Positions 4,739 to 43,463 of a stretch of 44,684 bases of DNA are shown one piece after another. Origin of the DNA: a virus. Numbering within the stretch: position 1 is the first letter of the stretch; each line of letters starts with the position of its first letter. The position numbers were made by a program, and so were the translations under genes. The DNA is taken from the IMG/VR virus record IMGVR_UViG_3300019776_000836, positions 1-44,684 of that record. One strand, given 5' to 3'. Below the pieces are notes generated by a model that was not told the DNA's origin, made no database searches, and saw only the letters and a program-made list of their open reading frames with translations.

Positions 4739-5046
4739 TACTTCACCTCCTTGCTGAGCCGGCCCGTCACCGCGCGTTTCAGGCTTTCCCAGCCCAGCAG
4801 CCCGGCGGCGATGCCAGCGGCGACGGCGCCGTGCTCTTTCCAGCCCATCGCCATTGCTGCCTCGGCGGCGCCGAAGCCGACGAAGACCATGACCGCGCCA
4901 TCCGCCAAGACCGCCCGCCAGGGCCGCGGCGGGCCGGAGTAGGTCAGCAGCCGCACCGCAGCGGCGCCGATGCCTATGGCAAGGAAAGGCAGGTGCGCGG
5001 CGGCGCCCGCGGCCTCGCGGGCTGCGGTCTCAGCGGGATCGGTCAT
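4738..5046 (-). CDS. Phage holin (LydA / holin-3 like)
   Basis: This 102-residue membrane protein has hydrophobic segments at about residues 19-36 and 45-66 and an amphipathic third at 72-90, which contains HGAVAAGIAAGLLGWESLKRAV. It ends in a basic tail. That layout and the GWESL-type C-terminus fit the LydA/holin-3 group. It would permeabilise the inner membrane at the end of infection. It is translated immediately before the holin-endolysin fusion, sharing the A of TAATG, so the phage appears to make two holin-like polypeptides. No spanin (Rz/Rz1) gene was recognised nearby. Confidence 0.75.
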   Translation of the reverse strand: MTDPAETAAREAAGAAAHLPFLAIGIGAAAVRLLTYSGPPRPWRAVLADGAVMVFVGFGAAEAAMAMGWKEHGAVAAGIAAGLLGWESLKRAVTGRLSKEVK

Positions 5047-6319: not shown

Positions 6320-7960
6320 CTACGCCGCGACCGTGTCGAGCGTGCGAATCGCCGCGACCGATGCGCCGCTGCTGCCGACCGTGCCGACGCTCTCGAAGGG
6401 CAGGATGGACCCGCCCAGGGCGACGTAGCGCCGCACCCGGACCACGACGGGAATATCGGCCGCATAGATCAGCGTAGTGGACAACGAAGCGCCCGAGGCG
6501 GCGGCATCCAACAGCGGCACGAAAGCGCCCCGGCCGTTGTAGTTCGCCGCCAGCGTGACGCCGGACGCCAGCGTAAAGGTCGAACCGGACCAGCTGCTGT
6601 AGGCGTAGCGGTCATAGGTGCCGGCCGCGTTCAGGACGCGAATGGTCCCGGTCTGCGGTTCATCGGCGCCGATGGTGCCGGAGACAGTGACGGTGCCCGA
6701 GCCGGCGGCATTGCCGCTGGCCGCCAGGGTGTATTGCGCCAGGTTGATCGTGGTGCTGGCGGCGCCGGTGGAGCGGGCGACCAGCACCTGATCGCCGGCG
6801 AAAAGGCCGGTGACAGCGACGGTGACGACGTTCGGCGGGATCTGCGTGGTGCCATCACTGGCGATGAGCTGGAACGCCTGCACATCGCGGCTGTCCATAC
6901 CTTGCACCCAGACGCCGCGGGCACCGAAGAACTTGCCGCCGGCGAAGCTGCCGAAGGGCGCGGCAGCGTTCGCTGCGTAGTTCGACAGGGCGAGGTAGAG
7001 CTGCCCCTGCGTGCCGTTCAGCAAGCCCGTTGCGCCGCGGCGAACCAGATATTGAAGGTACTCATAGACCTGATACATGCGGTTTCCGCCGCAGCTGACG
7101 ATCAGGTCATAGGACTTCGCGCCGTTGCCGTTGCCCAGGTCTTTGCTGACCGCACCGAAGGACAGGCTGATCCCGGAGAAGGCGGCGACGGTTGCGCCAC
7201 TATCGACGATCGACGCATCGGCGGTTGTCTGGAGCGGCACCGGGTTGCGGCCACCAGCCGAGAGGTCGATGGCGTAATAGGCGTAGGTATTGCCAAACTC
7301 GCGGGCATAGACCGCGGCCTGCCCGGCGTTGATGGCGACGCCCGCCCGCTTTACCGGCAGCAGCAGGTCGATCTGCCCGGCAGGCCAGTAGGAGGTCAGG
7401 ACCGAGTTCGCGCCCTGCGACACATAAAGCTGCGTCCCGGCTTGCAGCGTGCCCAGGGTGTAGAGGTTGGCGAATTCCGCCTCTCCCGTCGCCACCGCCG
7501 TGGTCGTGCCGGCGCCGGTGCCCGAGGTGATCGAGGTGCTGCCCGCCGCCAGCGTTCCGGTGCCGGCCCGCACCCACCACAGCTTCGCCGCGTTGTCATA
7601 ACCCAGCAGCGTGCCCGTCGCCGCGCCGACGGCGACCGTTTTGCCGATGTCACTGGCGACGGCGGCGGTATAGGTGCTGCCGAAGGTCAGCAGATAGATC
7701 GCGTTGGACCAGCCCGAGGTGGAAATGCCGCCGAGCCGCAGATATTGCAGATCAGCTTCCGACAGAAACCAGCCATTCACCATGGTGTAGTTCACCGGGG
7801 TGCTGGCCGACATCGGCACGGAGTATTGCATGTAGCTGGCGGTGGCGAAGACGCTTTCCAGCCAGGAATAGAGCGCGTTTACGGTGTAGACCGTGCTGCC
7901 GGCGGTGTGCGTCACCCGGCGGGTGACAGGGTCGATCGTCCAGTCGTCCTGGATGGCCAT
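6320..7960 (-). CDS. Large hypothetical virion protein
   Basis: This 546-residue protein is beta-rich, with many Gly, Ser and Thr residues and repeated short turns (GTLAAGSTSITSGTGAGTT near residue 135; AASGNAAGSGTVTVSGTIG near 430). The N-terminus reads MAIQDDWTIDPVTRRVTHTAG. No enzyme motif is seen. Composition and place after the fibre genes point to a fibre, tail-tip or capsid-decoration protein. It starts three bases after the preceding small ORF. It is unrecognised, so the structural role is inferred. Confidence 0.65.
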   Translation of the reverse strand: MAIQDDWTIDPVTRRVTHTAGSTVYTVNALYSWLESVFATASYMQYSVPMSASTPVNYTMVNGWFLSEADLQYLRLGGISTSGWSNAIYLLTFGSTYTAAVASDIGKTVAVGAATGTLLGYDNAAKLWWVRAGTGTLAAGSTSITSGTGAGTTTAVATGEAEFANLYTLGTLQAGTQLYVSQGANSVLTSYWPAGQIDLLLPVKRAGVAINAGQAAVYAREFGNTYAYYAIDLSAGGRNPVPLQTTADASIVDSGATVAAFSGISLSFGAVSKDLGNGNGAKSYDLIVSCGGNRMYQVYEYLQYLVRRGATGLLNGTQGQLYLALSNYAANAAAPFGSFAGGKFFGARGVWVQGMDSRDVQAFQLIASDGTTQIPPNVVTVAVTGLFAGDQVLVARSTGAASTTINLAQYTLAASGNAAGSGTVTVSGTIGADEPQTGTIRVLNAAGTYDRYAYSSWSGSTFTLASGVTLAANYNGRGAFVPLLDAAASGASLSTTLIYAADIPVVVRVRRYVALGGSILPFESVGTVGSSGASVAAIRTLDTVAA

Positions 7961-7963
7961 GGA

Positions 7964-8188
7964 TCAGGTCTCCGGGAAATAGGCGTCGAGCAGCTGCAGG
8001 CTGGCATAGCCGGCGATCTCGGCCGCGGTCAGATCGGCGCGGCGAATGCCGAAGGCGACACGCTCATCATCCGACAGCCAGCCGTAGCAGGCGATGACGG
8101 CGCGCAGCTCCTCTTCCGTCAGATCCTCTCGGCGTTTTCGGCAGGCCGTCTGAAACAGGTCGGCGGCGTCGGCGCTCGGGTGATACAT
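7964..8188 (-). CDS. Small hypothetical protein
   Basis: This 74-residue protein is mostly helical and mildly acidic: it opens YHPSADAADLFQTACRKRRE, then has LTEEELRAVIACYGWLSDDERVAFGI. Short helical proteins between fibre genes are often assembly chaperones, but no signature of such a family is visible. It is spaced one base from the upstream gene and three from the downstream one, consistent with one operon. Confidence 0.55.
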   Translation of the reverse strand: MYHPSADAADLFQTACRKRREDLTEEELRAVIACYGWLSDDERVAFGIRRADLTAAEIAGYASLQLLDAYFPET

Positions 8189-32513: not shown

Positions 32514-33152
32514 TTATGCGGCGGCGGGGCGGGCGATGACGGCGGCGAGCTCTATCACCTCGAGCTTGCGGGCCGGCACCATGACTTGCGTCGGCCGGCC
32601 GAACAGCGCCACCTGAACGATGACCTTGCCGCCATCGACCCGCAGCACCGGGCCGACCTGATCGGCGAAGGCGGTATCGGCGCCGATGCGGACCGTGGCG
32701 CCGGCCCGGAGGAGGCTGTCAGCGGGGCGATCCAGCGCGCCAGCGGCAGCGTGGTCGTCCTGCAGCGCCTCGATGACCCCACGCCGCACGGGCCAGGGCC
32801 GCTCCGCAGCGAGGAAGAACAGCCGATGGACGCCCCGGGTGGAACAGATGGCGCGCCAGCGATCCTGCGCCACATCGAACTGGACGAAGAGGTAGCCGGG
32901 GAAAACGGGGCGGAGGACTTCGGTGTCGCGCCGGGCGTGCCGAACGAAGGCGCGGCGCATGGGCCGCCAGACGTTCCAGCCTTGGGCTTCAAGCTCCCGC
33001 ATCGCGGTTTCCGCGCGGGCGGGCTGATGCTGAAGGACGTACCAGCGGGGGTCAGAATGGCTACCGCAGTCCAGGGTGAAATGCTCACCCGGGACTGCCC
33101 GCTGAGGAATGGTTAGACCCTGGTCGGCGGACCGGTCAACAGGATTCTGCAT
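32514..33152 (-). CDS. NusG-like transcription antiterminator
   Basis: The ATG at 33152 is preceded at eight bases by GAGAGG (33166-33161); an ATG at 33158 lies too close to it. The 212-residue protein has a NusG N-terminal domain at about 36-115 (RWYVLQHQPARAETAMRELEAQGWNVWRP; RPVFPGYLFVQF; ICSTRGVHRLFF). A KOW-type domain sits near 148-200 (AGATVRIG; FADQVGPVLRVDGGKVIVQVALFGRPTQVMVPARKLEVI). RfaH/NusG paralogues bind the elongating RNA polymerase and suppress pausing and termination. As first gene of the roughly 31-kb late operon, it would promote its transcription. The first 30 residues are not part of the domain. Confidence 0.85.
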   Translation of the reverse strand: MQNPVDRSADQGLTIPQRAVPGEHFTLDCGSHSDPRWYVLQHQPARAETAMRELEAQGWNVWRPMRRAFVRHARRDTEVLRPVFPGYLFVQFDVAQDRWRAICSTRGVHRLFFLAAERPWPVRRGVIEALQDDHAAAGALDRPADSLLRAGATVRIGADTAFADQVGPVLRVDGGKVIVQVALFGRPTQVMVPARKLEVIELAAVIARPAAA

Positions 33153-33164
33153 CGCCATCCCCTC

Positions 33165-33410
33165 TCAAACGCCTTGTCGTTTCCGTTTGATTTTTGTTTG
33201 AGCCTTTGTTTGCTCTAAGCCTTTGATATTAAACAATTCAAACAATCAAACGCAGATAATGGAGATTCGCGCGAGGCAATCGTACAGCCGGCCCTGTGCT
33301 TTTTCCCGCGCGCACGCGCGGGGGTGCGTTTGATTGTTTGAACCCTGCAAAAACAAGGGCTTGCGTCAAACAAACGTCAAACATTTTCCAAACAGCCGGC
33401 GATTTCAAAC
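33165..33410. repeat. TCAAAC repeat array (iteron-like), ten exact copies in both orientations
   Basis: TCAAAC lies at 33165, 33238, 33246, 33366, 33377 and 33405 (first bases) on the plus strand. GTTTGA lies at 33185, 33196, 33328 and 33336. Near copies occur at 33208 (GTTTGC) and 33388 (CCAAAC). Several copies are 8-11 bp apart, about one helical turn, suggesting cooperative binding of a protein on one face of the DNA. Confidence 0.75.
33237..33342. repeat. 18-bp perfect inverted repeat spanning the TCAAAC array
   Basis: TTCAAACAATCAAACGCA at 33237-33254 is the exact reverse complement of bases 33325-33342, with 70 bp between. Each arm contains two TCAAAC units. The arms may be paired protein-binding sites that hold a loop, or arms of a cruciform. 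A short GC hairpin (CCCGCGCG/CGCGCGGG, 33305-33322) lies inside. Confidence 0.8.
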
Positions 33411-33412
33411 GG

Positions 33413-35353
33413 CTAGCCCCCTGGCACGGCGGGCTGCACCGGCACGGTCGGATCGTCCTCCCGCGATCCGGGGAGCCGGAGGGCCGCTTCCGGGATGAAG
33501 ACCGCACGGTCCTGGCCGCCGCCGCGGAAATGGATGCTGCCGCCATCCCCCGCGCCCGGCAGGTCGCGCAGAGCCTGGCGCCAGACACGGTTCGCCCAGG
33601 TGGTGTTGTCGAAACAGCGGTTGATCTGCGGCGATGTGTTGCCGAGGTAGACGCCCTGGCCGTGCGACCACCTGATTTTCAGCATCCCGGCTTCTCTCGC
33701 CCGCCGCTTGGCGCGGCTGTCGATTTCGCCATAGGCCGGATCGGACGAGCCGGCCTGCTTCAGCCTGGCCAGCTCAGCGGCGAGGTCGCGCAGATCCTCG
33801 AGCAGCGCGGCCACGGTCATCATGCCCTTGCCGTCGATCCCCACGCGCACCGGGGAGGCCAGGAGGTGGGCGAGGGCGAGCCGACCGGCGTCCGTCTCCT
33901 CAGCCATCGAGGGCGTGACCATCTCCACCCCCAGCGCGTCGATCTCCTCCCGCGCCGCGGTCGGGTCGATCGGTGTGTCGTCGATCAGCGTGCGGTGCCC
34001 CGCCAGCAGCGCGGCGAACTGGTCCGCGCTGCGGCTGGTGGCCTCCGCCGCCAGCAGCGCGGCGCGATAGACCGCCAGGTTCGCCTGGAAGCGCGGCCAC
34101 CCGACCACCAGCCGGGAGAGGAAGGCCGGGTGCATTTCCTTCGCCCAGCCGACCCGCTCGGCGATCTCGGCCTCCTTCGCCGTGCCCCCGCGGCGGAGCG
34201 CGAGGACGGTGATGCGGCTGAGGTCCGCCGCCTCAAAATCTGGCGTGCTGATCGCGGCCAGCATGAAGGGCACATGCAAGTGATAGGTCGTCACCTGCCC
34301 GTCCATCAGCCGGCCGAAGCGGCCGTTGCTGGAAGCCGCGCGCATCAGCGCCAGCACCTCGTTCACGCCCTTGCTGTTCGGCTCCTTCTCATCCAGCACG
34401 ATCAGATGCGAGCGGCCGTTGTGGAGGTTGCGGACATAGGCTTCCGAGACATCCTCGGCCGGCGCGTCGGCGCCGCTGGCGGAGGTGACCAGGCGCAACA
34501 GGGTGCTTTTTCCCGCGCCGGCCGGGCCGCGCAGCCACAGATGCGGGCACCAGTCCAGCGCCGCGGCATAGACCCCGCAGGCAACCATGCCCGCCAAATA
34601 GACCGGTGCCGCCGGGGCGATGCCGGGGACGAAATTCCAAAGCCGGAAGGCATCCACCAGCCGCCGCGCTTCCAGGGCTGTGGCGGCTTTCGCCGCCGGC
34701 CGGGGCCGCTTGTTCGCGGCCAGATGGATGGCGTTATCGTGCTTCCAGCCCAGCGGCCGCTCCAGCGCGTCGGGCGCCGTCCAGACGGCATTCCCGACAT
34801 GGATCACCAGCCCGCCATCGGGCCCGGGCCAGATGCCGTCCTTCCGGTGATCCAGCAGGTTCGCCTGCCCCAGCCGAGTGCAGGCGGTGATGAGTTCATC
34901 GCCCAGGTCGCGGGCGGAGAAATCGCCGGTCGGCAGCATTTCCACCCGGCCGTCATCGTCCCGCACCACCCGGCCGGCGGAATCGCGCTTTGGCCGCATC
35001 TGCGGCCAGCGTTCCGCCATCCATTCCTTGCGCTCCCCGCCGCCGAAGAGGCCGGACAGTTCGGCCACCGTCTGCAGCTGCTTCGCCGTCATCACGACGC
35101 GGTCGCCGGAGGCAGCCAGCAGCACATAGACGATGCTGGAGGCGCGCATATCGGTGCCCAGCGGGATGACCGGACCGAACCGCCCGCCATCCGCACCCTG
35201 GCCGCCTGCGCCCGCGCCGGACCCGCCGCCGCCGCCCTTGCGGTCTTCTTCCTCCGGCCCCGGCTCGGGCAAAGGCGGGATGGATTCGTCGCCGCCGAAA
35301 TCGGCCGCCGGCAGGGCGGAGCCCTTCGGCCAGGGGATGACGGAACCGCTCAT
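33413..35353 (-). CDS. P-loop ATPase of the replication module (helicase-like)
   Basis: The start at 35353 overlaps the upstream gene by four bases and gives 646 residues. After an acidic and Gly-rich linker (about 22-58), the ATPase core shows Walker A GPAGAGKST at 276-284 and Walker B LIVLDE at 317-322. A probable sensor region follows (FMLAAISTPDFEAADLSRITVLALRR near 370-395). Together with the CHC2/TOPRIM primase two genes upstream it would supply helicase activity at the phage fork. The core resembles SF3/DnaA-like phage ATPases, but I cannot name the family. The TCAAAC region follows its stop at once. Confidence 0.75.
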   Translation of the reverse strand: MSGSVIPWPKGSALPAADFGGDESIPPLPEPGPEEEDRKGGGGGSGAGAGGQGADGGRFGPVIPLGTDMRASSIVYVLLAASGDRVVMTAKQLQTVAELSGLFGGGERKEWMAERWPQMRPKRDSAGRVVRDDDGRVEMLPTGDFSARDLGDELITACTRLGQANLLDHRKDGIWPGPDGGLVIHVGNAVWTAPDALERPLGWKHDNAIHLAANKRPRPAAKAATALEARRLVDAFRLWNFVPGIAPAAPVYLAGMVACGVYAAALDWCPHLWLRGPAGAGKSTLLRLVTSASGADAPAEDVSEAYVRNLHNGRSHLIVLDEKEPNSKGVNEVLALMRAASSNGRFGRLMDGQVTTYHLHVPFMLAAISTPDFEAADLSRITVLALRRGGTAKEAEIAERVGWAKEMHPAFLSRLVVGWPRFQANLAVYRAALLAAEATSRSADQFAALLAGHRTLIDDTPIDPTAAREEIDALGVEMVTPSMAEETDAGRLALAHLLASPVRVGIDGKGMMTVAALLEDLRDLAAELARLKQAGSSDPAYGEIDSRAKRRAREAGMLKIRWSHGQGVYLGNTSPQINRCFDNTTWANRVWRQALRDLPGAGDGGSIHFRGGGQDRAVFIPEAALRLPGSREDDPTVPVQPAVPGG

Positions 35354-35550: not shown

Positions 35551-35774
35551 CGGCTGGCTTCCAATCCGGCCTGCCGGGCCTTGGCCGAAGCCTGGGCGGC
35601 GGTGAGGCTGGGGAACCAATCGAGCTTGCGCATCGGCTCGCCGCCGACGCGGGCCAGCTGCAGGTTCGCCGGTTCGGCGCGCCACAGGCGCCAGCCGCCA
35701 TCCTCCGCGCGCAGCACCCATGGCCCCGCCCGCCAGGCGCCGGCGGCCTGCTGCTGCCAGACCAGCCCGGTCAT
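35547..35774 (-). CDS. Small hypothetical protein next to primase
   Basis: This 75-residue protein starts at 35774 with an ATGA overlap on the primase gene and ends with one on the following ORF. It has a Trp-rich beta part (VWQQQAAGAWRAGPWVLRAEDGGWRLWRA) and a short C-terminal helix. The pattern of paired tryptophans resembles small phage proteins found beside primases, but no family can be named. Confidence 0.5.
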   Translation of the reverse strand: MTGLVWQQQAAGAWRAGPWVLRAEDGGWRLWRAEPANLQLARVGGEPMRKLDWFPSLTAAQASAKARQAGLEASR

Positions 35775-36844
35775 GCCGCGACCTCCGCCCGCTGGCGCAG
35801 CCACAGATCGGCGTAGTCGCCGCGTTCCTTCGGCGCCCGCACATCCACCGCCACGGCGGCGGCGGCCTGCCGGCGGGCCAGCATGCGTGCGTGGAAAATC
35901 CCCGCGCCTTCGGGCATTTCCTGCCCGCGATGCCCTTCGGCCCGCAGGCGCGGCTTGTCCCGATCGGCGAAGATCACCAGCTCGGCGATATCGAAGGGCA
36001 GCTCCACCGCCGCCAGCGCGCCGGCGTTCAGGCAGGACCAGGTCGGCACGCCGGAGAGGAAATAGGCCGCCAGCGCGGTCTCGATCCCTTCCGCCACACC
36101 CAGCCGCTCCGCCACCGGGAACAGCCGAATGGCGTTGCCCTTCAGCGGCCCCAGGCTCAGCCGCGGATCGCCGACGCCGCCGAGCTTGCCCCAGCCGGCG
36201 CTGCCGCGACCCAGCCAGGTGCGATGGACGCCCCGGAAGGTGCCGTCCGGCCCGTCGATCCGGGCCAGCAGAATCGGGTGCGCGGCGTGCGAGGCTTCCG
36301 GGTGCGGGCCGCAGCCGGCGCGCAGCACCGCATGGCAGGCATCCGGCAGCGGCCACAGCCCGCGGCCGGCCAGATAGGCGGCCTGGGGCGAGCCTTCCAG
36401 GATGGCGGCGCCGGCTTTCCAGATCCGTGCCGCCCGCGCCGTCCGCTGCTGCACGTCGCCATCATCCGGGCGCGCGGCGGCGACCGCCGCCGGCTTCCTC
36501 GGCTGCCAGGGGGCGGGCGCGGGTTCCGCCTGCCAATCGGCGGCCATGCCGGCTTCGGCCGCGCAACGCCGGGCCGCTTCCGGGAAGGAAAGCCCTTCGA
36601 TCTGCGCCACGAAGCGGATGACGTCGCCATGGGCGTTGCAGCCGAAGCAATGGAAGTTCCTGCGGTCCGGCCGCACCGCGAAGCTGGGGCGATTCTCGCC
36701 ATGGAAGGGGCAAAGCCCCATGTGCCAGGAGCCTTTCTTGCGCAGATCCACATGCCGGCCAACCACGGCTTCGATCGGCAGCCGGGCGCGAATCTCATCC
36801 AGCACCGAATCAGGGATGCGGCCGAGCCGCTGCCGGGCCGTCAT
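35771..36844 (-). CDS. DNA primase with CHC2 zinc finger and TOPRIM domain
   Basis: This 357-residue DnaG-like primase has a CHC2 zinc finger (CPFH at 45-48, FHCFGC at 64-69) in the setting GLCPFHGENRPSFAV. A linker rich in Ala/Pro follows (about 104-130), then a TOPRIM domain with RLGVAEGIETALAAYFL near 247-263 and VIFADRDK at 290-297. It lacks a long C-terminal helicase domain; the neighbouring ATPase probably provides it. It makes primers for phage DNA synthesis. Overlaps on both sides are four bases. Confidence 0.9.
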   Translation of the reverse strand: MTARQRLGRIPDSVLDEIRARLPIEAVVGRHVDLRKKGSWHMGLCPFHGENRPSFAVRPDRRNFHCFGCNAHGDVIRFVAQIEGLSFPEAARRCAAEAGMAADWQAEPAPAPWQPRKPAAVAAARPDDGDVQQRTARAARIWKAGAAILEGSPQAAYLAGRGLWPLPDACHAVLRAGCGPHPEASHAAHPILLARIDGPDGTFRGVHRTWLGRGSAGWGKLGGVGDPRLSLGPLKGNAIRLFPVAERLGVAEGIETALAAYFLSGVPTWSCLNAGALAAVELPFDIAELVIFADRDKPRLRAEGHRGQEMPEGAGIFHARMLARRQAAAAVAVDVRAPKERGDYADLWLRQRAEVAA

Positions 36845-38391
36845 GCCGCGCGCCCTGCCCCGCGGAGTTCGCCCTGGAGGCGGAACACCTCATGCGCCGG
36901 CAGGCCGACCCGGGCGGCGATGCGCAGCGGATCGGCACCCCTTTCCCGCAGCGCGGCCAGCGCCGCGTCGCGCTTGCTGGCCTGGCGCTGTTCCACCGCC
37001 GCCATCTGCTGCTCCACCGGCAGCCCGCTAGGGGCGAAGACCCGCACCCGGCGACCGCTTTCGAACTCGACATACCGGGCGGGCCGGGCCGGCGCGGCGG
37101 CAGGCGCCACGCGGGTTGCCACCGGCTTGCCTTTGCGGCGCGCCAGCTTCGGTTGCGGCGCCTTCACCGCCGGCGCGCGCCGGATGGGCGCCGGCTTCGG
37201 CCGCGGCGCCGCCATCTGCGCCGGCTGCGGCGCGGTGCGCCAGGACCCGTCGGGCGCGGCCACAACCCGCCAGCGGGCGCCGCGCTCCACCACGATCAGC
37301 CCCAGATCCTGCGCCCGGGCGACCATGAAGCGGACGGAGGATTCATGCCGGGTGCCCAGCACGGCGGCGAGCTGCGTGGTGGAGGGCGCCGGCTTGCCCG
37401 CCAGGGCGGCCGCGCGGAAGGCGGCCGCCACCAGATGAGAGGACCAGGCCGGGCATTCCTGCCGCAGCGCCGCCACCAGCACAGGCACCGAGGCTTCCAG
37501 CGCGGCCGCCACCGCCGGCAGGGGCTGCCCGGCTTCCAGCAGCGGCATGGCGCGGACATGCAGCGCCGCCAGTTCCACCGGCGTCACCGCGCCCCGGCCG
37601 CCGGCCAGCGTCTGTTCGAACAGCCGCTGACGGCACCGCACCGGCAGGGTCAGGCCATGCTTCGCCGCCAAATTGTAGAGCGTGCGGCGCGAGAGGCCAT
37701 GCGCCGCCGCCACCGAGGTGACCGTGGCGCGCGGCGCGGCCAGGGCCGCCCGCAGCGCGTCCAGATCGTAGTGGTGGCGCTTGCCATCCTGGGGCCCGGC
37801 GGCGCCGGGGCGGGCGATGGGCAGGGCCAGACCGTGCCGGCCGCCCAGGTAGTAGACCGCCGCGCGGCTGATGCCGAAGGCCGCCGCCACCGCGCGCACC
37901 GTGGCGCCCGGGGCGGCCAGGGCCCGCTGCAGGGCTTCGATATCATGCGCCCGCTTCGGCGCCGGCGCGGGCTTCGCCGGCGCGGGCTTCGCCGTGACGA
38001 TGCCGTGCTTGCGGCAGATGAACAGCAGCGTGCCCCTGTCGATCTGCAGCTTCGCCGCGACGCCGCGGGTGGTGGCGCCGGGTTCGGCCAGCGCGGCGCG
38101 AATATCATCCAGCGAATAGACCCCGCGACGGTTGCCGTGCGGCAGGGACAGACCGTGCCGCGCCGCGATTTCCCGGACATAGGCGCGGGACAGGCCGGTG
38201 GCGCGGGCGATCTGCGGCGCTGTCATGCCCTGCCCCGCGGCGTCCAGCACCCGCTGGATATTGCGGCGGGCGCGGCGCGGCCGGCGGCGGGCGGAACGGG
38301 AGTGGGAGGCCGGGGCGGCGGTGCCGGACACCACCCCAGCCTCCCGCGCGGCGGGGAGGAGTGCGCCGCGCATGTCGTCGGGGGCGGTCAT
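36841..38391 (-). CDS. Multi-helix-turn-helix repeat protein of the replication module
   Basis: This 516-residue basic protein contains at least four related HTH units. They lie at about 44-85, 92-133, 149-192 and 208-251, each ending near a (R/K)HGL-type motif (ARHGLSLP, RKHGIV, GRHGLALP, AKHGLTLP) and containing SR-x-x-(V/L)Y at the recognition helix. Further HTH-like parts lie near 271-312, at 333-377 (winged) and near 474-510. The middle section, 380-440, is Pro/Ala/Arg/Lys-rich and likely disordered. It overlaps the primase gene by four bases. It could bind a repeated origin such as the TCAAAC array, or act as a regulator. No comparable family is known to me. Confidence 0.75.
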   Translation of the reverse strand: MTAPDDMRGALLPAAREAGVVSGTAAPASHSRSARRRPRRARRNIQRVLDAAGQGMTAPQIARATGLSRAYVREIAARHGLSLPHGNRRGVYSLDDIRAALAEPGATTRGVAAKLQIDRGTLLFICRKHGIVTAKPAPAKPAPAPKRAHDIEALQRALAAPGATVRAVAAAFGISRAAVYYLGGRHGLALPIARPGAAGPQDGKRHHYDLDALRAALAAPRATVTSVAAAHGLSRRTLYNLAAKHGLTLPVRCRQRLFEQTLAGGRGAVTPVELAALHVRAMPLLEAGQPLPAVAAALEASVPVLVAALRQECPAWSSHLVAAAFRAAALAGKPAPSTTQLAAVLGTRHESSVRFMVARAQDLGLIVVERGARWRVVAAPDGSWRTAPQPAQMAAPRPKPAPIRRAPAVKAPQPKLARRKGKPVATRVAPAAAPARPARYVEFESGRRVRVFAPSGLPVEQQMAAVEQRQASKRDAALAALRERGADPLRIAARVGLPAHEVFRLQGELRGAGRAA

Positions 38392-38623: not shown

Positions 38624-38932
38624 CTACATCCCCAGCGCTTGGCGATAGAGATCGAGCAGCGTTTCGTGCTCTTGCACCGCCGCCGGTTCCTGCCGGCGGA
38701 TGGCCAGCAGCGCGCGCAGCACCTTCACGTCGAAGCCGGCCGACTTGGCTTCGGCGAACACGTCGCGGATATCGCCGCCCAGCGACTTGCGCTCTTCCTC
38801 CAGCCGCTCGATCCGTTCGACGAGGCTGCGCAGCCGATCGGCGGCGATGCCGCCCGGGTTGGCGGGCGGGTCTTCCACATCGGTCTGGCGCGGGTCGGCG
38901 ACCAGCCGGATGGCGGCAATGTTGCGGGCCAT
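38624..38932 (-). CDS. GapR-like DNA-binding protein (DUF2312)
   Basis: The start at 38932 gives 102 residues. The C-terminal 75 match GapR: AADRLRSLVERIERLEEERKSLGGDIRDVFAEAKSAGFDVKVLRALLAIRR, then QEHETLLDLYRQALG. GapR in Caulobacter encircles overtwisted DNA and assists replication and transcription. The N-terminal 26 residues are extra. Here it lies in the replication operon, so a role in phage DNA topology is plausible. The family is essentially alphaproteobacterial, which supports the host assignment. Confidence 0.88.
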   Translation of the reverse strand: MARNIAAIRLVADPRQTDVEDPPANPGGIAADRLRSLVERIERLEEERKSLGGDIRDVFAEAKSAGFDVKVLRALLAIRRQEPAAVQEHETLLDLYRQALGM

Positions 38933-39099
38933 CAGCCGCGCCCCCGCATCTGCCGTTCGGCGCGCTGCTGATAGGCGATGACCCAGTGCTTCACCGCGAA
39001 GCGTTCCAGCCTTTCGGCCAGGGACACGCGCCAGCGCGCGGAATGGCCCAGCAGGCCGACGACGAAGAAGGCTGTCCGCGACAGCAGAAGATGCCACAT
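38932..39099 (-). CDS. 55-residue protein with one membrane segment
   Basis: This small ORF starts at ATG 39099, sharing a base with the upstream TGA (TGATG), and ends in a TGATG overlap with the GapR gene. The N-terminus WHLLLSRTAFFVVGLLGH is hydrophobic enough to be a membrane anchor, followed by a basic helix (RWRVSLAERLERFAVKHW) and an Arg-rich tail. An early single-span protein of this size may be a host-takeover, superinfection or membrane-docking factor. No family is recognised. Confidence 0.55.
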   Translation of the reverse strand: MWHLLLSRTAFFVVGLLGHSARWRVSLAERLERFAVKHWVIAYQQRAERQMRGRG

Positions 39100-42307: not shown

Positions 42308-42549
42308 GCAGCGATCCGCTACTGACCGCAAGACAAGCTGCGCCCGTGGTCGGCCTGTCTGTCGCGGCCTTCTACAAGAATGTGAAGAGCGGCCGGTTGC
42401 CGTGGCCGCTCTATCCGGCGCCGCGAGCGGCGCGGTGGCGGCTATCCGAACTCAATGCAGCCATCGAAGCGACGCGCGCTTCGCCGTCTGAAGCACAAGC
42501 TGGACGACGCGCTGCGGCAGAGCGCGTTCGAAAAGCGGAGTCCACATGA
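42304..42549 (+). CDS. AlpA/excisionase-type HTH protein upstream of methyltransferase
   Basis: This 81-residue protein has a MerR/AlpA-like HTH at about residues 7-50 (LTARQAAPVVGLSVAAFYKNVKSGRLPWPL; RWRLSELNAAIEA) and a basic tail. Such proteins bind DNA as regulators or recombination directionality factors. It is coupled to the methyltransferase by a four-base overlap, so it may control it or the operon. A second protein of this fold precedes int. Confidence 0.7.
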   Translation: MSSDPLLTARQAAPVVGLSVAAFYKNVKSGRLPWPLYPAPRAARWRLSELNAAIEATRASPSEAQAGRRAAAERVRKAEST

Positions 42550-43463
42550 AAGCCATCGACCTCTTCGCAGGCGCGGGCGGCTTCACCGAGGGCGCGCGGC
42601 AGGCCGGCGTCTCCGTCGTGTGGGCCGCGAACCACTGGCAGGCGGCGGTGGCAATCCACGCCGCCAACCACCCGGAGGCTGCGCACATCTGCCAGGACCT
42701 GCACCAGGCCGACTGGTCGCGGGTGCCGGCGCATGACGTGCTGATGGCCTCGCCCTGCTGCCAGGGCCACACCCTGGCGCGGGGCACGAACCGGCCGCAC
42801 CATGACGCCAGCCGCAGCACGGCGTGGGCCGTGGTCTCGGCTGCCGAGTTCCACCGGCCGGCCGTGGTGGTGGTGGAGAACGTGCCGGAGTTCCGGGGAT
42901 GGCTGCTGTTCCCCGCTTGGGCGGCGGCCATGCGGGCGCTGGGATACACGCTGGCGGAGCATGTGCTGGATGCCGCGGACCGCGGCGTGCCGCAGCACCG
43001 GGAACGGCTGGTGATCGTGGCGACCCGCAGCCGCGCGCCGCTGCAGCTGACCCTGCCGCGTCGGCGGCGGGTGCCCATCGCGCGGGTGCTGCGCTGGGAT
43101 GCGGGCGCTTGGTCGCCGGTGGAGCGCCCCGGGCGCGCGCCGGCCACTCTGGCGAGGATTGAGAGCGGGCGGGCCCGGTTCGGCCGGCGGTTCGTCATTC
43201 CGTACTACGGCAGCGGCAGCGGTCTGACCGGCCGCAGCCTGGACCGGCCGATCGGCACGATCACCACGATAGCCCGCTGGGCTGTGGTGGACGGAGACCG
43301 GATGCGGATGCTGACGGTGGACGAGACGCGCGCCGCGATGGGTTTCCCCGAGGGCTATCACCTGCCGCGCCAGCAGCGCGCGGCGATCCAGATGCTGGGC
43401 AACGCGGTGCCGCCGCCGCTGGCCAGGGACGTGCTGGCGGCGAAGGAGACGGGCAATGAGTGA
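42546..43463 (+). CDS. DNA (cytosine-5) methyltransferase, orphan
   Basis: This 305-residue protein has C5-methyltransferase motifs: I DLFAGAGGFTEG near 5-16, IV SPCCQG with catalytic Cys71, VI ENV at 111-113, VIII QHRERL at 150-155, and IX/X GNAVPPPLA near the end. The PCC in place of the usual PPCQ is unusual. The target-recognition region between about 175 and 235 is short. No restriction endonuclease lies nearby, so it probably protects phage DNA or marks host DNA. It follows an HTH gene by coupling. Confidence 0.9.
   Translation: MKAIDLFAGAGGFTEGARQAGVSVVWAANHWQAAVAIHAANHPEAAHICQDLHQADWSRVPAHDVLMASPCCQGHTLARGTNRPHHDASRSTAWAVVSAAEFHRPAVVVVENVPEFRGWLLFPAWAAAMRALGYTLAEHVLDAADRGVPQHRERLVIVATRSRAPLQLTLPRRRRVPIARVLRWDAGAWSPVERPGRAPATLARIESGRARFGRRFVIPYYGSGSGLTGRSLDRPIGTITTIARWAVVDGDRMRMLTVDETRAAMGFPEGYHLPRQQRAAIQMLGNAVPPPLARDVLAAKETGNE

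Follow-up and report, generated by a model that had tools for sequence, protein, structure and literature searches.

Gene neighbourhood and composition of the array

The sequence examined was the IMG/VR record IMGVR_UViG_3300019776_000836 at its whole length of 44,684 nt (in the following, the window). It contains a dense array of the hexamer TCAAAC with the gene for an ATPase on one side and a NusG-like gene and the late operon on the other, in agreement with the initial annotation, which had placed the array at the junction of the replication and late operons. The elements of this region are:

35771–36844, minus strand: DnaG-type primase (CHC2 zinc ribbon and Toprim), upstream partner of the ATPase
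33413–35353, minus strand: putative initiator, an AAA+ helicase of 646 aa with the Walker A motif GPAGAGKS and a predicted fold like that of SCCmec Cch and MCM
33165–33410, no strand assigned: whole iteron array, putative replication origin, with 10 exact TCAAAC sites in both orientations
32514–33158, minus strand: NusG/RfaH-like antiterminator (PF02357), first gene of the late operon after the array

All genes flanking the array are co-oriented, on the minus strand. For the ATPase gene, the assignments were PHROG 21086 and primase PHROG 35358, and its stop codon is separated by 2 bp from the nearest iteron (33405). At the other end, 7 bp separate the last site of the array from the nusG start codon, the array being the leader of the nusG/late operon. 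Transcriptionally downstream of the array follow the NusG-like gene, a tail-like protein, and the small and large terminase subunits, the terminase genes lying about 1.5 kb beyond the array. On the replication side, 36841–38391 (minus strand) encodes a protein with four or so repeated HTH units that is not conserved with the array, and the start of the replication operon is occupied by a GapR-like DNA-binding protein (38624–39097, minus strand; PF10073, E 1.6e-30). A search of the 84 array loci gave no relative of the GapR-like protein, but a locus with a different helicase (L005, see below) encodes a protein that resembles it in its C-terminal sequence.

All ten exact copies of TCAAAC or GTTTGA that had been reported in both orientations within 246 bp were located, at 33165, 33185(−), 33196(−), 33238, 33246, 33328(−), 33336(−), 33366, 33377, and 33405. 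The initial annotation had added two near matches; the number of one-mismatch sites is five (33208, 33221, 33229, 33370, and 33388). Counted over the window, as had been suggested, TCAAAC occurs 13 times, with 10 of the 13 copies inside the 246-bp array, compared with a mean of 6.8 copies in the shuffled whole window. A raw maximal-hexamer count was too unspecific in GC-rich coding DNA, and therefore a composition-corrected score was used instead. By this score, the hexamer excess of the array is 10^-12.4 versus the first-order Markov expectation, which makes it the top 400-bp stretch of the 44.7-kb window, with the runner-up at 10^-6.5. The GC content is 0.47 in the array versus 0.70 in the window. 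The 18-bp inverted repeat formed by 33237–33254 and 33325–33342 is indeed perfect.

Conservation and layout of the array in related phages

Searches for close relatives with the ATPase and NusG protein alone gave no matches. Viral and bacterial collections yielded 102 loci containing an ATPase relative, and, after addition of the earlier loci and removal of duplicates and cut-off genes, 106 loci were scanned. These loci were selected only by their ATPase relative, so that the presence of the ATPase in all of them is by design. In an unsupervised scan, 71 of the 106 loci had their strongest composition-corrected hexamer excess close to the end of the ATPase gene, from −200 to +500 bp relative to the stop codon. 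Two-orientation arrays directly after the stop codon account for 70 of these, and the 71st (L151) is a one-orientation tandem repeat (coding). In 13 further loci, the strongest array lies 0.8–3.3 kb downstream of the ATPase, among other genes; two loci (L102 and L118) have their strongest excess more than 4 kb upstream of the ATPase, and 20 are without a strong array. As the repeats of L118 and L151 are in tandem in one orientation, both were dropped as arrays. The arrays had a mean strength of 10^-13.6, compared with a mean of 10^-5.2 for the second-strongest place in these loci.

As a check independent of the ATPase-based selection, a terminase-selected set of loci was analyzed, in which an array was found in 6 of 6 loci with the ATPase versus 3 of 37 loci without it (Fisher, 1.4e-5). 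Among the exceptions, L021 encodes a different primase-helicase (weakly DUF5906-like), followed by a GTCCG array, whereas L005 and L006, which have a related terminase, encode an AAA_25-type (RepA-like) helicase, followed by an GCCCCGAA array without the GT step described below. Thus, also where the replication gene has been exchanged, an origin-like array comes after it. The GCCCCGAA array comprises 14–15 copies at positions 7600–8000, the matching place. More distant named phages with fused primase-helicases mostly have no array right after the gene. Acinetobacter phage Acjo_20 (L181) contains 12 copies of GTTACA at 1500–1900, upstream of its primase-helicase gene and not downstream.

In the close relative L003 (large terminase 89% and ATPase 66% identical), eight copies of TCAAAC occupy the same intergenic place; here the iterons have been retained, and the intervening DNA has in large part diverged. 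In more distant relatives, that place is taken not by TCAAAC but by an array of another word, for example TGTGAG in Synechococcus phage MinM1 (L070), TGGGACA in L004, TGAGACA in L009, and CGTGAG in L037 and L052. The conservation in related phages on which the initial annotation had made its proposal depend is thus strong, but only if the hexamer is allowed to change between phages. Altogether, the 85 arrays fall into 39 motif classes, and a GT/AC step is present in 38 of the 39, more than any other dinucleotide; with a chance of about 0.52 per class, the joint probability is about 5e-12. The idea that the GT step has one polarity throughout with respect to the layout was rejected: most arrays agree, but about ten motif classes are reversed, as judged by eye. 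In two natural swap pairs (L074/L075 and L104/L120), 77–82% of the AAA+ core is shared, whereas the word and the C-terminal domain differ; the words of the first pair are GTTCCA (L074) and GTTACC (L075), at a core identity of 77%. Two prophages of a single strain, Rhodovarius crocodyli CCP-6 (L163 and L165), have nearly the same word (AGGGGAC), and therefore one host can hold two prophages with the same word. Named lysogens among the loci include Pseudoroseomonas cervicalis ATCC 49957 (L153) and Stella vacuolata (L158).

Layout statistics were obtained over 59–68 distinct arrays. The typical array has a median of 11 sites and a span of 247 bp. Its core of about 71 bp is bordered on either side by an inner group, and beyond each inner group come a gap and then an outer group, the first gap being about 31 bp and the second about 32 bp long. 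The sites are spaced by 8–9 bp in the inner groups and mostly by 11–12 bp in the outer groups. The inner-to-outer spacings follow the helical phase (Rayleigh p ~2e-6 and 2e-5), but the core does not. In the window, the corresponding parts are:

33165–33213, no strand assigned: outer iteron group on the late side (A'), with sites at 33165 (+), 33185 (−), and 33196 (−) and a near match at 33208
33202–33236, no strand assigned: AT-rich gap between outer and inner groups (GC 0.34), putative strand-opening site
33216–33228, plus strand: constant element, copy 1, TAAGCCTTTGATA
33238–33251, plus strand: inner iteron pair (B'), TCAAACAATCAAAC, with 8-bp spacing, within the inverted-repeat arm 33237–33254
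33252–33327, no strand assigned: central core, flanked by the two inner pairs and without AT enrichment (GC 0.66)
33328–33341, minus strand: inner iteron pair (B), within the opposite arm 33325–33342
33351–33363, minus strand: constant element, copy 2, CAAGCCCTTGTTT
33366–33410, plus strand: outer iteron group on the ATPase side (A), with sites at 33366, 33377, and 33405 and a near match at 33388

The two gaps are not equivalent. Across 59 arrays, the GC content of the late-side gap is 0.31, versus 0.46 for the other gap and 0.56 for the core (Wilcoxon ~1e-10), and in 86% of the arrays the late-side gap has the lowest GC of the three parts. Both gaps carry a constant element, approximately TAACCCATTGATA with the core TAANNNNYTGA, which is the same whatever the hexamer. 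Its score is 537–557, versus about 370 for shuffles, and when cross-validation sets were divided according to motif class, 36 of the 52 gaps kept out of training scored at p ≤ 0.05 (2.6 expected), with similar results for three further splits. Within the 44.7-kb window, copy 1 is the best match and copy 2 ranks fourth, and on these ranks it bears that the window array is one of the 59 training arrays for the element.

The putative initiator and known replicons

The structural model of the ATPase (pLDDT 87.7, 55 sequences) has its best PDB match in SCCmec Cch (5dgk_B; Z 17.4 over 416 residues, rmsd 6.8, model residues 63–631), and this match spans the AAA+ core as well as the C-terminal part, with 14% identity. 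The next PDB matches are MCM helicases, with Z of about 14 over about 240 residues. Over nearly the whole ATPase, the best structural match is thus the Cch/SaPIbov1 Rep type (DUF927, an MCM-like self-loading helicase). The window ATPase gave no match to Pfam DUF927, and 1 of 57 relatives gave a marginal one (E 0.00098).

The C-terminal domain comprises residues 476–646, and its model (AlphaFold, pLDDT 87) ends in a helix-helix-beta hairpin. When this domain alone was compared with the PDB, no match was significant; the top weak match was a relaxosome protein of the winged-helix type (5vfy/5vfx, Z 4.5). The P4 origin-binding domain is absent from the PDB match list for the C-terminal domain, an absence that excludes nothing. 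Motif similarity tracks C-terminal identity beyond that of the AAA+ core (partial r 0.27, permutation p 0.002, for pairs with a core identity of at least 0.4). However, the N-terminal domain tracks the motif equally well, and for this reason the identification of the C-terminal domain as the reader by correlation was rejected. In a scan of single columns, residue 606 in the wing was the best position, with N-terminal columns also high. From the precedents of SaPI and P4, the reader domain would most likely be the C-terminal, winged-helix-like one.

The C-terminal domain of SaPI Rep recognizes short iterons directly downstream of its own gene, and the primases of SaPIbov1 and SaPI5 are of the AEP type (PMC7581432). 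In PICI origins, two iteron sets flank an AT-rich region 3' of rep, and one such origin has been shown to be functional (PMC6092414). The organization described here is similar in that an initiator helicase gene is directly followed by short iterons around an AT-rich stretch, with the primase gene adjoining. The array lies directly 3' of the putative initiator gene, with the first iteron 2 bp from the stop codon, a likeness in position only, and groups B' and A' flank the gap with a GC content of 0.34 (average 0.31). The differences are that four iteron groups are present, B and A being extra, that the AT-rich part is in the late-side gap and not in the middle, that the primase is of the DnaG type rather than the AEP type of SaPIbov1 and SaPI5, and that the phages are full-length and temperate and encode terminase, capsid, and tail proteins themselves. 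The window itself encodes terminase, and portal, capsid, and tail proteins were read from the translations; because of these genes of its own it was not filed as a PICI.

Phage P4 was used as a positive control. The same scan, run blind, ranked the annotated crr first and ori second, and the constant element is matched in all three P4 gaps (p 0.007, 0.0005, and 0.013 versus shuffles). The P4 iterons, TGTTCACC (GGTGAACA), contain the GT/AC step, and GTTCAC is also the hexamer of L085 and L162. Half of the layout is alike as well, with two sites at a distance of 9 bp, followed by a 43-bp step across an AT-rich gap and then by oppositely oriented sites. The P4 iterons are spaced by 9–11 bp, and the related arrays share this kind of spacing together with an AT-rich spacer. 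In contrast, ori and crr of P4 lie several kb from each other and share the function between them, and the P4 alpha protein fuses primase and helicase. An hhalign comparison of the ATPase with P4 alpha aligned 64 columns around the Walker A motif only, with a probability of 14%.

Taken together, the array and the ATPase very probably work like a replicon of the SaPI/PICI/P4 type, in which an initiator gene is followed by an iteron origin, but in full-length temperate phages. The plan as such is known already from these elements; new here are its occurrence in dozens of phages with structural genes, the four iteron groups, the asymmetric putative opening site, the constant element, and the freely exchanged word. 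We found no account of such origins in phages with this ATPase in a search of the open-access literature.

Proposed origin function and alternative explanations

We consider it highly probable that the array is the replication origin of the phage and is bound at its GTTTGA iterons by the product of the adjacent Cch/SaPI-Rep-like ATPase gene. Judging from conservation and analogy, the self-loading AAA+ helicase from the neighboring gene would bind its own iterons, most likely through the C-terminal winged-helix-like domain. The two oppositely oriented half-sites would load helicase rings facing each other, the DNA would open in the AT-rich late-side gap (33202–33236) that carries the constant element, and the neighboring DnaG-type primase would start synthesis. 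The initial annotation had named the ATPase and the multi-HTH protein as candidate binders of an origin. Conservation of place and layout, the P4 control, and the similarity to Cch argue for the ATPase, whereas the multi-HTH protein finds no support, with no relative in any of the 84 array loci, a test limited by short flanks.

GC skew does not add to these arguments. A skew minimum had been sought at the array, but the minimum of the window is at 4,919. On the ATPase-sense strand, the skew falls across the array from 0.046 to 0.018 over 53 loci (p 0.002), and in the window from 0.045 to −0.054. Both in the window and in the average of the 53 loci, the change is opposite to that of a bidirectional origin, and skew was therefore rejected as support. 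Phage skew also reflects transcription and the late replication mode, and therefore this result weakens the case for an origin only slightly.

The position of the array as the nusG leader, among genes that are all co-oriented, would also suit a regulatory region of the late operon through which nusG and the late genes are controlled, its sites serving as repressor or activator operators or as the place where the NusG-like antiterminator is loaded. We regard this as improbable: the array is kept although just 5 of the 84 array loci have a NusG relative; a dozen phages have the array at 0.8–3.3 kb from the ATPase, among other genes; a crude scan found no sigma-70-like promoter; and the layout matches the P4 origin and crr. 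A role in both processes, with the array acting as the origin and initiator binding also shutting off or timing late transcription, so that replication would be coupled to late expression, is a better candidate, even if its probability is well short of even. The iterons extend as far as the start region of nusG, the succession of initiator gene, array, and late operon recurs in L003, MinM1, and others, and iteron initiators often autoregulate; however, the first gene downstream of the array differs in several phages.

Short repeats in two orientations occur at centromere-like sites too, and the terminase genes begin not far beyond the array, as might be expected of a partition (parS-like) or packaging (pac/cos) site. 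Such a function is very improbable, since no ParA/ParB-like gene is among the genes beside the array, and since a hexamer that changes between ATPase relatives, an AT-rich gap, and a match to P4 ori/crr would not be expected. As for a chance or functionless low-complexity repeat, the AT content of the region exceeds that of the genome, and this raises the counts of A-rich hexamers; but the local excess stands after correction for base composition, and the array is kept in L003, where the flanks have diverged, as well as in dozens of relatives, so that this explanation, already refuted by conservation, has practically no probability left.

Beyond the origin itself, we tentatively propose, at a likelihood only a little below even, a large phage replicon family with one fixed origin blueprint consisting of four iteron groups, a constant TAANNNNYTGA-like element, and an asymmetric AT-rich opening site. 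Only the iteron word, an invariant GT step plus about four hypervariable bases, would be exchanged. A variable surface of the initiator would read it, and each phage would thereby be restricted to replicating its own DNA; all copies of the word would change together, possibly driven by satellites, rival prophages, or iteron-targeting nucleases.

If these interpretations are true, they would provide an origin and an initiator for a large, mostly uncharacterized group of temperate phages (of Acetobacteraceae, Stella, and others, as well as cyanophage MinM1) and a simple rule to find such origins in raw sequence. An origin plan described as unique to phage satellites would also be used by full-length phages, and the roughly 39 natural initiator/iteron classes on one layout would make an origin-recognition code of Rep helicases testable by swaps. 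Elsewhere in the window, the gene at 42546–43463 (plus strand) reads like a C5 cytosine DNA methyltransferase, with PCC and ENV motifs recognized by eye in the translation.
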